From NCBI GenBank assembly GCA_947304115.1, contig CAMZAE010000007.1, forward strand, positions 1 through 64,000: DNA of 64,000 nt, written 5' to 3'. Positions 11,054 to 61,311 of this stretch are shown here, one piece after another (the first letter of the stretch is position 1; every line of letters begins with the position of its first letter). The position numbers were made by a program, and so were the translations under genes. This stretch comes from an uncultured Prevotellaceae bacterium. GTDB lineage: Bacteria > Bacteroidota > Bacteroidia > Bacteroidales > Bacteroidaceae. The notes under the pieces are model-generated. The model worked only from the letters and a program-made list of their open reading frames with translations, ran no database searches and had not been told where the DNA came from.

Positions 11054-12493
11054 CTATTTCAGCATGACCTTTTTACTTGTTCCGTCTGAGTGACGGATGA
11101 TGTTCAAGCCACGCTGGGGAGCAGGAATGCGCTGGCCTGCGAGGTTATAGATTGCTCCCTCTTCCGTCTCCACGCTGGGAGAAACAACCGCGTCGGGATT
11201 GTCGTCGAATATCATCCGCAGCTTTGGGGCACTTGCCGTTTCGTCGCTCGGAATACGCAGATAGGCCTTGCCTGCTTCCAATGTGATGTCGTTATCAACA
11301 GGGAAGAAGCCGTCATCGCCGTCCTTGTTAGACAGCAGATAGTTATTATAGCCATCGGCGGTCTGTGCCAAGACTGTTGTTGCCGACGTGCCTACCAGCA
11401 GGTTGGCATAATAGGAGTACGACTTGCGCACAGGAACTTCGTAAGTGCCAGGTTCGCCCGCCAGCAGGAGTCCTTCGCCAGCAGGAACGTCGTTCACACG
11501 CATCATCAGCACATCACCTGTAAGCCGTTGGAAGCCCGCTGCTGTGTAAGCCTTGAGGCCATGTATGCCGCAGAAATCCAGGTCTTTCTCGCATGAGAAG
11601 GTTTCTATCAGAGAGTTCAGCGTGATGCTCACCGTTGGTTCCTTCACCTCGAATGTCGCCGTTCCATCGGCCAGCCATTGCCCCTTGTTGTCGAGCAGAA
11701 TCACATGCAGGTCGTGCATTCCGATGGAAAGGTCTTCTGCCTCTATCACGATGTCGTCGTCGGTCAGAGGGAAGGTCAAGGCGTCGTCCTTCTCGTCGTC
11801 AATCCATATCTGGCACAACAAGAGGGCATATTGCAGCTCGTTCATATAGAAATACTCTGTTTGAACGGGCGAAGCCTCGCCTGCGGCGTTGAACGTCTGA
11901 TAGTGTACGGAATGCAGGCCTATTTCCATGTGGCTGATGTCAAGATTGATAAGGCCGTTCAGTGTGGGAGCAGTCTGGGCGGTCGATTCGTCGTTGTCGA
12001 ACCAGTAGCGGGCAGTGGTGCTTTCCCTGTCGCCTTTCCAAAGGAAGAAATATGCTGTCTGCACAGGTGAAGCATCGCCTGATGCATTAAACGTATGATA
12101 GTGTATGGCATGTGCTCCATTTTCTATACAACTGATGTCGAGTTCGATGATGCCTTTTGCTGTAGGCACCGTATGTGCGGTTGTCTCGTCACTGTCATAC
12201 CAGTAGCGTGCTGTTACACCCTCTGTATCGCTTTTCTTACTTAGGAAGAAATATGTTGTGCGGACGGTACTCCATTTGTTCCTTGTGTCACGCCCTTGCA
12301 GGCGCAGAGCATGAACAGAGCCTTTCGCCAGAGAGCCGATGTCAAGCTCTATAGTCGTCTCGCCATTGGCCGAACCTGACTGTAGGGTGGACAGGTCGTT
12401 GTCGTACCAGTAGCGATAGCTATAGGCTGTCTGTCCTCTTGCCGAACTTATCAGGGCAAGAAGCATGATGAATCCTATAAATCTGAGCTTCAT
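11054..12493 (-). CDS. Secreted protein with ~55-aa RYWFDND-type repeats and C-terminal sorting tail
   Basis: Signal peptide; three RYW(Y/F)D(N/S)D modules plus a diverged fourth; YNLAGQRIPAPQRGLNIIRHSDGTSKKVMLK tail; paralog of 59908-61311. Confidence 0.75.
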   Translation of the reverse strand: MKLRFIGFIMLLALISSARGQTAYSYRYWYDNDLSTLQSGSANGETTIELDIGSLAKGSVHALRLQGRDTRNKWSTVRTTYFFLSKKSDTEGVTARYWYDSDETTAHTVPTAKGIIELDISCIENGAHAIHYHTFNASGDASPVQTAYFFLWKGDRESTTARYWFDNDESTAQTAPTLNGLINLDISHMEIGLHSVHYQTFNAAGEASPVQTEYFYMNELQYALLLCQIWIDDEKDDALTFPLTDDDIVIEAEDLSIGMHDLHVILLDNKGQWLADGTATFEVKEPTVSITLNSLIETFSCEKDLDFCGIHGLKAYTAAGFQRLTGDVLMMRVNDVPAGEGLLLAGEPGTYEVPVRKSYSYYANLLVGTSATTVLAQTADGYNNYLLSNKDGDDGFFPVDNDITLEAGKAYLRIPSDETASAPKLRMIFDDNPDAVVSPSVETEEGAIYNLAGQRIPAPQRGLNIIRHSDGTSKKVMLK

Positions 12494-12503
12494 GGCTTAC
12501 TTA

Positions 12504-13469
12504 CTATTCTACGTTAATTTTAATGTTCAGCTTGCCGTCCTTGTGGGAGCCAATCACGTCGAGCTTCTTCACCAGCGGATAGTCGGGTGTGGTGTCGTAG
12601 GGATACATGCCGCCGTAGATGCCTATCTCTGTGCCGTCAGTACCAACGTAGGTAGCAGCAGCATTATCGGTCAGATGGTAGTAACCTGTGAAATATCCAT
12701 CCATAGAATTAACAGACCATGAATCAGAGAAACCACTACTGCCTTCCTTCACTAAGCAATGACTTGTTTTGTTTGTATTATCCAAAGTGAGAGCTGCACA
12801 AATGATGGAGTTCTTGATTGACGAGTGATAAATGCTATAGACTTCCTTAGTATCATTGAATAAGACGCAATTTTGCACATCAAATTTTCCGTTATTGCCA
12901 GAATCCCCGTTATCACACCATATGTTATTTAGCACGCTATTAATACAAACCACATTGGCCCCTTTATAGGCAAAGATGCGAGAACCGATTTGGGAATGTA
13001 TAACGTTTTTTTGACAATTCTCTATAAATAATTCACCTCTTCCATTTTGGCCCATAATAAAAGAGCATTTAGAAATAACTATTTTTTCCGTTCCGTCTGT
13101 GCCTTCTATCGTTAACGTCGAACCATTTGCGTTTTGACTACTATAGCTTAATCCTTCAAAGGTCAGAGCATGAGAACTTCCTTTGGGTAGTTTAAAAGAA
13201 CTACTGGAACCTTTTATTATTGTCGTTTTGGTTATTCCCTCGCCTCTGATAGTAATGGCTTTGCTGATGTTGCAGCCATTAAAATTACCCGAAGAGAGTG
13301 TAATGACATCTCCATCTACAGCGGCTTCATGCGCCTCATTTAATGCATTTTCGCCATAGAATGCTTGGATTCCAGAGCCATGCTGCAAGGTTGCGACACG
13401 GCTGTCCTGTGCCATCGCGCCCACTCCGCAGGCGATGGCAGCGGTTAACATAAGAAATAGTTTTTTCAT
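12504..13469 (-). CDS. Secreted beta-helix-like protein, paralog of 58936-59901
   Basis: MKKLFLMLTAAIACGVGAMAQ signal peptide; repeated ITIRGEGI / ISKCSF / SIIKNSI strands; conserved ends shared with the paralog. Confidence 0.7.
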   Translation of the reverse strand: MKKLFLMLTAAIACGVGAMAQDSRVATLQHGSGIQAFYGENALNEAHEAAVDGDVITLSSGNFNGCNISKAITIRGEGITKTTIIKGSSSSFKLPKGSSHALTFEGLSYSSQNANGSTLTIEGTDGTEKIVISKCSFIMGQNGRGELFIENCQKNVIHSQIGSRIFAYKGANVVCINSVLNNIWCDNGDSGNNGKFDVQNCVLFNDTKEVYSIYHSSIKNSIICAALTLDNTNKTSHCLVKEGSSGFSDSWSVNSMDGYFTGYYHLTDNAAATYVGTDGTEIGIYGGMYPYDTTPDYPLVKKLDVIGSHKDGKLNIKINVE

Positions 13470-13833
13470 GTTAAATAAGTTTTTTGTGCCTGCAAACACC
13501 CTGAAGCTGGCAAATGATTGGTTTTGTTGGTTTTCGCAGATATACAAAAAAGGCGCAGGTGTTTTGCTTCTCAGCCTATCCTGGAGCTGTAAGCCTTCGC
13601 AATGCCCTTACCACACAGGATAGACAACGCTGTTAGCCCACGCCAGTACGAACTACATATAATAAGGTATATAGAAGCGTACCACGCAGACGTCTCGTTG
13701 TCATCTGTCTGCTGCGGTGGTAGGAATTTGCGAGATTCATAGTCCACAACGAAAGACGTTCGAAAACGTCTTTCTTATATAAGAGACCGCCCACCGCCCA
13801 TAGGTGAGCCAACCGAGCGATGCCGCAAAGTTA
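13470..13833 (-). ncRNA. Long structured 5' leader (copy 1) with promoter
   Basis: TAACTTTGC promoter (GCAAAGTTA 13825-13833), AGACGTT-TTCG-AACGTCT hairpin (13754-13771), extended similarity to 58576-58935 in inverted orientation. Confidence 0.65.
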
Positions 13834-14079
13834 CGAAAAAAAAGGATTTCGGCAAAAGCTTTTGAAGAAAAATTGTTCTTTCTTCCTGCTTTTGTTAGAA
13901 AAACACTTAATAAAAGCCACCTCGAAAGGTGGTTTTTGTTTATCTGTTGTATTTATGAATGGACGTCGTCACTTAAGCTCATAATAGTACTGTTTTGTCT
14001 TTTTCGTCGTTCTTATAGAAGGGAAGATATGTCCAGGGGACAATTATTTGAGCATCAAGTATTAAAAGCTTTTCTTTTT

Positions 14080-58458: not shown

Positions 58459-58575
58459 GCCTTAGCAGCACTATTCGAGTCACAAAGGTACGAAGAAAAA
58501 GTGAAAGAAACATAAAAGGGAAAAGTTATTTTTCTTTTTTCTTCAAAAGCGTTTGCATATTGTAATTATTATGTG

Positions 58576-58935
58576 TAACTTTGCAGCATCGCATCGCTGG
58601 TTCACCCATGTGGGCTGCGGGCGGTCTTATATATAAGAAAGACGTTTTCGAACGTCTGTCGTTGTGACTTGTGAACTTCGCAACTTCCAATCTCTACAAC
58701 AGACAGATGACAACGAGGCGTCTGCGTGGTGCGCATCTATATACATTATATATAGTTCGTGCTGGCGTAGGCTAACAGCGTTGTCTATCCTGTGTAGAGA
58801 GGGCAATGCGAAGGCCTACAAGTCCAGGATAGGCTGAGAAGCGAAACACCTGCGCCTTTTTTGTATATCTGCGCAAACAACAGAACATTACATTTGCCGA
58901 CTTCGGGGTGTTTGCAGGCAGAAAACTTATCAAAC
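58576..58935 (+). ncRNA. Long structured 5' leader (copy 2) with promoter
   Basis: TAACTTTGC 58576-58584; AGACGTT-TTCG-AACGTCT hairpin 58640-58657; extended similarity to copy 1. Confidence 0.65.
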
Positions 58936-59901
58936 ATGAAAAAACTATTTCTTTTGTTAACCGCAGCCATCGCCTGCGGAGTAGGCGCAATGGCACAGGA
59001 CAGCCGTGTCGCCACGTTGCAACATGGCACACACTTCCGGACATACTACGGAACAGATGCCTTTATCTCTGCACACAACGATGCCTCAGATGGCGACGTT
59101 ATCACTCTGACTGCAGGAGTGTTCAACCTATGCGATGTTACCAAAGCCCTTACTATTAGAGGAGAAGGAATGCAAAAGACTGTATTACAGAAAAGCATAC
59201 CACAATTTAAAATTCCTATGAATAATCTATATTCCCTTAGTTTGGAAGGATTAACCGTGAGTAACACCAACACAAGCGGAACGATTGCAATCGAAAGTAC
59301 TGGTGGATTTGCAACTATTACCATATCGAAGTGTGTTTTGACGGGAGGTTCGTACTACGTTAAATTTACTAATTGTAATGCAGTTGTTATGAACTCTGAA
59401 ATTAAGATAAAGACTCTTGGAAACTGCAACTCCTCTATTACTTGTATCAATAGTAAAATGACAACTTTAGAAGGTGGCACATTTGATGTGCAGAACTGCG
59501 TCATTACAGGAACGGCAAATGTCTCTAACTCCATTATCAAGAACAGCATCGTTTATGGCGTCACAACACTGAATGATACAAACGAAAGCAGCCATTGCTT
59601 GGTAAAAGAAGGCAGCAGCGGCTTTGACAACTCATGGTATGTTAAGACTGTTGCACCAGAACCCGATCCATGGGACGAAACTCCATCCACCTATGTCCTT
59701 TGGGATGAACTGTTTACGGGAAACTATCATCTGACGGCAGAAGCTTCGCAGAACTATATCGGCACAGACGGCACAGAGATAGGCATCTATGGCGGTGCAT
59801 ATCCCTACGACATCACACCTGACTATCCTCTTGTGAAGAACATTGAGGTGAAGGGCATCCATGAAAATGGCAAGCTGAGCGTAAAGATTAACGTAGAGTA
59901 A
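58936..59901 (+). CDS. Secreted beta-helix-like protein, paralog of 12504-13469
   Basis: Near-identical signal peptide and C-terminal YPYDITPDYPLVK...KLSVKINVE; variable middle. Confidence 0.7.
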   Translation: MKKLFLLLTAAIACGVGAMAQDSRVATLQHGTHFRTYYGTDAFISAHNDASDGDVITLTAGVFNLCDVTKALTIRGEGMQKTVLQKSIPQFKIPMNNLYSLSLEGLTVSNTNTSGTIAIESTGGFATITISKCVLTGGSYYVKFTNCNAVVMNSEIKIKTLGNCNSSITCINSKMTTLEGGTFDVQNCVITGTANVSNSIIKNSIVYGVTTLNDTNESSHCLVKEGSSGFDNSWYVKTVAPEPDPWDETPSTYVLWDELFTGNYHLTAEASQNYIGTDGTEIGIYGGAYPYDITPDYPLVKNIEVKGIHENGKLSVKINVE

Positions 59902-59907
59902 ACAGCC

Positions 59908-61311
59908 ATGAAACACAGATTATTATTTTTCGTCACACTCCTTGCCCTGATAGGTTCGGCAAGGGGGCAGACGTCCTATAGCTATCGCTATTGGTTCGAC
60001 GATGACGATGCGACGGTGCATACAAGTTCGGCCAGCGGCGAGACGACTATAGAGTTCGACGTCGGTTCGTTGGCAAAAGGCGCGATGCACGCCCTGCACA
60101 TACAGGCGCTCGACGCAAGGGACAAGTGGGGTGCCGTGCATACAACATACTTCTACTACACAAGGAGCAAGGCTGACAACGTCACTGCCCGCTATTGGTT
60201 CGACAACGATTCAATCACGCAGACGGCTCCCAAGACAGACGGCTGGATTGAATTCAATATCTCAGAGCTTGGTTGTGGCGTTCACGCCCTACACTTCCAG
60301 ATGTACGATGCCAGCGGAGGTGCCTCGCCTGTGCAGACAGCCTACTTCTACAAAGGGGCTAAAGGCAACAAGGCTCGCTATTGGTTCGATAACGAGACAA
60401 ACATGCGGACGACATCTGTTGTGAGCGGCACGACAGACCTTGACATCGCAGGGCTTGGTTTCGGCATTCACGCCTTGCACTACCAGTTGTTCAGTGCCAA
60501 CGGGGAAGCCTCGCCCGTACAGACACAGTACTTCGTCAAGAAGAATGACTTGGATTTCTCTTCGCTGACATGCCGTTTGTGGATTGATGAAGAGGAGGAC
60601 CTGGCAATGTCCTTCGGCCTGACAGAAGATATCATCCTTGAAGCCCAAGACCTTGCCCCAGGCACGCATGAACTGCACGTCGCCCTTCTCAATTCCGAAG
60701 GGGAGCAGTTGATAGAGAAAACTACGACCTTTGAGGTGGATGCCCTAAGGAGCATCACCATTACGCTACAAGCCCCGATAGCGACCTTCTCGAATGAGCA
60801 CGGTCTGGACTTCGGCGGCATTGAGGGCCTCAAGGCTTACACAGCTACAGGCTTCCACAAGTGGACGGGCAATGTGCTGATGAGCCGCGTGAACGACGTG
60901 CCGGCAGGCGAAGGCCTGTTGCTGATGGGCGAACCAGGAACCTATGAGGTGCCCATAGCCAGGTCGTACTCCTTCTATGCCAACCTGCTGGTTGGTACGC
61001 CAGAAGTTACCGTGCTGGCACAGACAGCCGACGGCTTCGACAACTACATGCTTTCGTTCCGCGGCGGCGAGCCGGGCTTCTTCCTTGCCGACGACGGCAG
61101 CACCCTTGCGGCGGGCAAAGCCTATCTGCGCGTGCCAGGCGAACAAGCGGCTGGCGTCAGGACGCTGCGGATAAGTTTCGACGACAATCCCGACGGCGTG
61201 GTTTCTCCCCTCGGAGAGACGGAGGGGGCCATCTACAACCTTGCCGGACAGCGTCTGAACAAACTGCAGAAGGGCATCAACATCAAGAACGGAAAGAAGG
61301 TGCTGAAATGA
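59908..61311 (+). CDS. Secreted RYWFD-repeat protein with sorting tail, paralog of 11054-12493
   Basis: Repeated RYWFD(N/D) modules; IYNLAGQRLNKLQKGINIKNGKKVLK. Confidence 0.75.
   Translation: MKHRLLFFVTLLALIGSARGQTSYSYRYWFDDDDATVHTSSASGETTIEFDVGSLAKGAMHALHIQALDARDKWGAVHTTYFYYTRSKADNVTARYWFDNDSITQTAPKTDGWIEFNISELGCGVHALHFQMYDASGGASPVQTAYFYKGAKGNKARYWFDNETNMRTTSVVSGTTDLDIAGLGFGIHALHYQLFSANGEASPVQTQYFVKKNDLDFSSLTCRLWIDEEEDLAMSFGLTEDIILEAQDLAPGTHELHVALLNSEGEQLIEKTTTFEVDALRSITITLQAPIATFSNEHGLDFGGIEGLKAYTATGFHKWTGNVLMSRVNDVPAGEGLLLMGEPGTYEVPIARSYSFYANLLVGTPEVTVLAQTADGFDNYMLSFRGGEPGFFLADDGSTLAAGKAYLRVPGEQAAGVRTLRISFDDNPDGVVSPLGETEGAIYNLAGQRLNKLQKGINIKNGKKVLK

Follow-up and report, generated by a model that had tools for sequence, protein, structure and literature searches.

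Two copies of a structured leader in one window

The window, a stretch of 64,000 nucleotides from an uncultured Prevotellaceae bacterium (contig CAMZAE010000007.1 of assembly GCA_947304115.1), holds two gene cassettes, each headed by a promoter and a leader of about 350 nt. On the positive strand, a Bacteroidetes-type promoter precedes copy 1 of the leader, whose transcription probably starts near position 58590. The gene behind it encodes a 321-aa secreted-type protein of the DSRVATLQHG family, for which Pfam returned no match. Copy 2 lies on the negative strand. The features, including the helices described below, are as follows.

58552-58583, +: Bacteroidetes-type promoter (TTTG at 58552-58555, 20-nt spacer, TAACTTTG at 58576-58583)
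58590-58935, +: leader RNA copy 1, from the probable transcription start to the last base before the ATG at 58936
58640-58657, +: hairpin H1 (AGACGTT-TTCG-AACGTCT), ~95% paired in the family
58640-58644 and 58719-58723, +: alternative helix P1 (AGACG/CGTCT), ~95% paired in the family
58654-58660 and 58702-58708, +: helix P2 (GTCTGTC/GACAGAT), moderate support
58666-58672 and 58818-58824, +: helix PH (GACTTGT/ACAAGTC), E = 0 against the phylogenetic null, with covariation stronger than in any other helix
58676-58682 and 58807-58813, +: helix PE (CTTCGCA/TGCGAAG), with covariation, cognate tests and compensated variants
58691-58698 and 58793-58800, +: helix PF (TCTCTACA/TGTAGAGA), hypervariable yet complementary in every member, E = 0
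58710-58715 and 58779-58784, +: helix PG (ACAACG/CGTTGT), one varying pair
58764-58771 and 58849-58856, +: helix PA (GGCGTAGG/CCTGCGCC), adjoining the U-run on its 5' side
58785-58792 and 58825-58832, +: pseudoknot helix PC (CTATCCTG/CAGGATAG), covariation E = 0
58844-58850 and 58907-58913, +: helix PD (AAACACC/GGTGTTT), whose 3' strand lies past the U-run and stops 22 nt short of the ATG
58857-58862, +: U-run, the U-rich tract after PA
58936-59901, +: downstream gene (321-aa protein)
13826-13856, -: copy 2 promoter (TAACTTTG at 13826-13833, TTTG at 13853-13856)
13470-13823, -: leader RNA copy 2, with PA, PC, PD and PF present
12504-13469, -: gene behind copy 2, its protein 49% identical to that of copy 1

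The original prediction held that the two cassettes share a strongly conserved leader, and the pair is indeed found at 58590-58935 (+) and 13470-13823 (-), with 84% identity over about 340 nt (E = 1e-102), as against just 49% for the proteins behind them. Two shared elements that it had named, the AGACGTT-UUCG-AACGTCT hairpin (58640-58657 and 13754-13771) and the block TCCAGGATAGGCTGAGAAGC(A/G)AAACACCTGCGCC (58823-58856 and 13552-13585), occur in both copies. The copy 1 leader has a folding energy of -112.5 kcal/mol (z = -6.6), a value reached by none of 200 dinucleotide shuffles; the single-sequence minimum-energy fold recovers the long-range pairing and, by its nature, cannot represent pseudoknots. 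Copy 1 is intact, whereas in copy 2 PH is degenerate (GGACTAT versus ACAGCTCC) and PE is shortened by a mismatch (13582-13592 and 13736-13746, -). These differences may mean that copy 2 is in decay or undergoing change.

The second genes of the cassettes (59908-61311, +, and 11054-12493, -) encode paralogous repeat proteins with YRYWFDDD-type repeats. Both have a weak CBM_3 match and end in a common C-terminal IYNLAGQR...KKVLK tail.

Distribution of the RNA family

A plain DNA search found matches in 12 of 61 genomes, the window's own included, where it gave six matches, two being halves of one copy. Genome surveys were carried out with a covariance model, R1, built on the 3' domain of the leader. 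With this model, the window's own genome yielded seven copies; the observation of two copies in the window was correct, but its scope had been underestimated. R1 matched 110 of the 139 genomes surveyed in the window's genus and, in the family, 123 of 201 genomes, which represent 23 of its 30 genera; in genus and family, carrier genomes contained 1 to 13 matches each. Across the order Bacteroidales, 17 of 198 sampled genomes had a match. A class-wide sample of 295 genomes contained four with an R1 match, all of them Bacteroidales. In named assemblies, a DNA pattern for the core of the RNA hit 118 or more stretches, with carriers that include Prevotella, Xylanibacter, Phocaeicola massiliensis, Parabacteroides distasonis, Paludibacteraceae and Muribaculaceae. 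Cultured carriers include P. massiliensis DSM 17679 (L124:3728) and P. distasonis (L123).

Outside Bacteroidales, the collections searched contained no match. As far as tested, the RNA is confined to this order and is present in multiple copies in many of its genomes. The leader also had no match in the phage, plasmid and viral-contig collections searched, and we do not favor an origin from such elements.

We compared the leader with Rfam 15, a check that the original prediction had proposed, and found no plausible match: no family reached its gathering score, and permissive thresholds returned unrelated families at chance level. The leader is one copy of a large RNA family of gut and rumen Bacteroidales that is not in Rfam. 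No account of the element was found in the literature covered here, which for PMC8040213 comprised the main text. The candidate motifs of Fremin and Bhatt (2021), such as HMP2_1881, a 108-bp expressed Bacteroidetes candidate near radical SAM genes, resemble the leader in being structured, intergenic and found in Bacteroidetes (PMC8040213, main text). They differ in being short pieces, and the main text describes no full element, pseudoknots or leader position (PMC8040213). A fragment of the leader RNA may be among these candidates. The long 5' UTRs of Bacteroides thetaiotaomicron are also similar, as long leader mRNAs in the same order with possible cis elements; the elements named in the portions of PMC7366714 and PMC10994844 considered here belong to known Rfam classes only.

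Covariation and fold of the leader RNA

The fold was evaluated on 197 members, comprising 57 found by the covariance model alone (the unbiased set) and others found by pattern. Part of the 197 came from a pattern that fixes the sequences of PE3' and PB; for this reason, PE was assessed with the unbiased set. In a cognate test, the pairing of a member's own two strands was compared with pairing to the strands of other members. In the unbiased set, this test supported PF, PC, PE, PA, P2 and PD (p from 4e-11 to 6e-7; 2e-7 for PD and 6e-7 for PA), and for PF the own strand beat all 20 non-cognate controls in 43 of 57 members. The significance of such tests is inflated by relatedness, which we countered with nearest-relative controls and a tree-based null. 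When controls were limited to the nearest relatives, PH, PF, PE, PC and PD were still supported (p = 4e-5 for PD); the cognate strand of PH was better than that of every near relative in 153 of 197 members.

Column-pair covariation was scored on a MAFFT alignment against null alignments that preserve the tree and the substitutions and assume an equal chance of substitution in all columns. Sixteen pairs had E < 0.05, mostly in PH, PE, PC, PF and a small hairpin, H3. An unsupervised helix scan returned PH, PF, H3 and PC with E = 0, followed by PE, P2, PT and PD. The values for PT and PD (E = 7.7 and 15) are not significant singly, and PD therefore rests on the cognate tests. Covariation, which the original prediction had proposed as a check, is strong across the 197 members.

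Compensated variants of PE include CTAGCA/TGCTAG, CTTCGAAC/GTTCGAAG and CCTGAGAA/TTCTCAGG, and compensation is complete in CUUCGAAC/GUUCGAAG (member L205) and CCUGAGAA/UUCUCAGG (member L217). Full compensation is likewise found in PF (UGUCAAAGUC/GACUUUGACA, member L199). The varying pair of PG is GC in 141 members, AU in 34, GU in 20 and another combination in 1. PA is paired in 94-100% of the family and its 5' strand is nearly invariant; the local hairpin PB (GCGUUG/CAAUGC), which was used in building the search model, is nearly invariant as well. Being close to invariant, PA and PB carry little covariation information; PB is neither supported nor refuted by it, the compensated changes falling in PG only. 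Hairpin H1 and helix P1 are inseparable by covariation because both are ~95% paired.

One element of the original prediction fell away. Its possible long-range UCGUUGU/ACAACGA helix can pair in both window copies, but in the 197 relatives the columns pair at no more than the expected rate, and two of the six pairs counted form in fewer than one-third of members. We dropped this helix for want of conservation in the family; PG, in which ACAACG pairs with CGUUGU at 58779-58784, takes its place.

From the 5' end, the strands are ordered H1 (or P1), P2 5', PH5', PE5', PF5', P2 3', PG5' and a variable hairpin, then PA5', PG3', PC5', PF3', PE3', PH3' and PC3', and finally the hub strand, the U-run, PD3', about 24 nt and the start codon. 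These comparisons show a predicted fold in which PH, PE and PF make up one long interrupted helix docking the 5' and 3' domains, PG is nested inside that helix, and PA and PC form pseudoknots across it. In the same predicted fold, PD crosses PA.

Could the similarity of the two leaders reflect only a recent duplication of the cassettes? The genes of the two cassettes are indeed paralogous and lie in matching order. Such a duplication fails to explain the conservation, given a family distributed over many genera and compensatory changes in its variable helices. The RNA, complete with covariation, is shared by 23 of the family's 30 genera and extends to further families within the order. Homologues and covariation together rule out duplication as the sole cause, and we give it practically no weight.

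Hub strand, downstream genes and proposed function

Directly 5' of the U-run lies the hub strand, with the consensus CAGACUCCCACGCC (AAACACCUGCGCC in copy 1). Strand complementarity shows three possible partners for it: PA5', a local strand PT5' (CGUGGGA) and PD3', which lies past the U-run. These choices are mutually exclusive, wholly or partly, and covariation for PA, PT and PD as exclusive alternative helices is partial. At least six U's occur within the 8 nt after PA in 52 of the 57 unbiased members. Some members have an interrupted U-run, and the divergent member L202 has none; on the basis of such sequences, termination may not be universal. With regard to a possible leader-peptide attenuator, the longest closed ATG open reading frame within the leader averages 36 aa versus 30 aa in local shuffles.

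A TAnnTTTG box stands no more than 160 nt ahead of the fold in 179 of 196 members, compared with an expectation of about 18; in 123 (2 expected), the upstream (-33) TTTG is present as well. Of 189 members that had sufficient flank and for which a gene could be called, 187 are followed by a gene on their own strand. The median distance to the ATG is 71 nt from the U-run and, in members with a strong PD, 24 nt from the end of PD3' (interquartile range, 22 to 28 nt). In B. thetaiotaomicron, according to the part of PMC7366714 that treats them, 5' UTRs are most commonly 23 nt long. The promoter consensus and a same-strand gene at a near-fixed distance point to a cis-acting leader, presumably transcribed with the gene from its own upstream promoter.

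We favor, at a probability of roughly 0.6, a cis-acting regulatory leader forming the first ~350 nt of the mRNA, an RNA switch whose hub strand would choose among exclusive partners and whose copies would govern one regulon. It is the mutual exclusion of the hub-strand partners, as predicted from their complementarity, that leads us to read the leader as a switch. Its own promoter would yield the leader as the first ~350 nt of the mRNA. Closure of PA or PT by the hub strand against the U-run would cause RNA polymerase to terminate or pause, while a core held in the other state would permit read-through and the formation of PD. In the PD state, the site of ribosome loading, some 24 nt ahead of the start codon, would stay unobstructed. 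The balance might be set by a signal, whether a small molecule, a protein or a physical cue, and the unrelated accessory and surface genes that carry the module would constitute one regulon.

The original prediction had offered two roles, a structured 5' UTR regulator or an independent sRNA. The first is strengthened by the leader's own promoter, the near-fixed gene on the same strand and a covarying tertiary fold that reaches to ~24 nt before the start codon. An sRNA gene that acts in trans and ends at the U-run, with the gene behind it incidental or reached by read-through, would likewise have its own promoter and a GC-rich helix followed at once by a U-rich tract. We consider it unlikely: the gene behind is on the same strand at a near-constant distance (187/189) and always close, and PD joins strands on either side of the U-run, leaving ~24 nt before the ATG. 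A free sRNA is argued against because the strand past the U-run belongs to the fold.

The genes behind the leader form 124 clusters, 99 of them singletons. They encode BspA-type leucine-rich repeat (LRR) proteins, the commonest kind (13 of 160 by Pfam), together with the DSRVATLQHG family, small helix-turn-helix (HTH) proteins, LytTR proteins, lipoproteins, kinases, and Abi-, FRG- and DUF2971-type proteins. Neither a single function common to these genes nor a pathway that would indicate a ligand was found among them. By a crude rule, 64% of the downstream proteins look exported versus 38% of neighboring open reading frames. The claim that the leader precedes surface proteins holds to that extent, but HTH, LytTR, kinase and Abi-type genes are found there too. 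Defense-type models (DUF2971/PDC-S31, AbiH, AbiGi, FRG, HKD+Snf2) are seen behind the leader at L182, L049 and other loci.

A leader lies directly upstream of 10 of 30 homologues of a 73-aa HTH protein, drawn from several genera across the family, and upstream of 5 of 30 homologues of the window protein (DSRVATLQHG), one of them weakly. Given the few leaders per genome, both linkages are far above chance; they are not universal. Like other cis-regulatory RNAs, the leader appears to be acquired and lost and to move from one gene to another. HTH proteins of 73 to 93 aa recur behind it across genera (L123:6635-6853, -; L086, L133, L173, L180 and L210), and this family could belong to the regulon or be a candidate for a factor acting in trans. 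At L023, L073, L099 and L169, the leader precedes small proteins that open with an SRREFFKRAAK motif, some with cysteine-rich tails; these are possibly peptide precursors and one recurring leader-linked family.

A promoter-plus-leader module that merely disperses, or a recombination block, without regulatory meaning would account for the fact that each gene family carries the leader only in part, and for two copies in one genome (C7 and C6) that are 86% identical and precede unrelated genes, one for a window-type protein and one for a PD40 protein. The compensated base changes, however, indicate selection on the fold, and the same HTH family is linked to it repeatedly across genera. No link to transposases was seen, the phage, plasmid and viral-contig searches gave no match, and no recombinase families are among the Pfam families listed for the downstream genes. 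We regard this explanation as quite improbable.

The main rival to the switch is a constitutive or self-processing leader with one fixed fold, which would stabilize the 5' end, undergo processing or self-cleavage that leaves a 23-nt UTR, or set ribosome loading. Ribozymes typically have compact folds with several pseudoknots. The leader is also found before functionally unrelated genes, and it ends ~24 nt before the start codon, which resembles the common short UTR reported in the relevant part of PMC7366714. On the other hand, a strand with three partners next to a U-run exceeds what a stabilizer needs, and no cleavage site can be named for a self-cleaving RNA. We give this rival a small but real chance.

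Among known systems, the leader is most readily compared with orphan riboswitches and large cis-regulatory leaders, with which it shares a long structured 5' UTR, a conserved core, predicted exclusive helices by a U-run, and many copies per genome before diverse envelope and regulatory genes. A comparable breadth of target genes is seen for the c-di-GMP GEMM riboswitches. Unlike the riboswitches in Rfam, which it matches in neither sequence nor structure, it has a three-piece interdomain helix with crossing helices and a partner strand past the U-run, near the start codon. Intrinsic-terminator attenuators likewise place a GC-rich helix immediately 5' of a U-rich tract, but the PA loop is ~77 nt long and pseudoknotted, some U-runs have interruptions, and PD spans the tract. 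A helix that extends past the U-run would be unusual for a pure transcription attenuator, and like the interrupted U-runs it counts against strict attenuation. Only tentatively do we suggest a Bacteroidales-wide sensory RNA class with an uncatalogued fold and a shared signal, which, by way of a hub strand with three exclusive partners, would control both transcription and translation of scattered surface, regulatory and defense-type genes that make up one regulon.

Bacteroidales dominate gut and rumen communities, and RNA regulation in them is poorly known. Here, most genomes in the genus and family to which the window belongs carry a large and highly structured RNA without an Rfam entry, and the genes behind it likely matter for the cell surface and for interaction with the host. 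If the leader does sense a signal, these genes would form a regulon open to testing, and the ligand could be sought directly. Even a constitutive role would place it with the more elaborate natural mRNA leaders on record.
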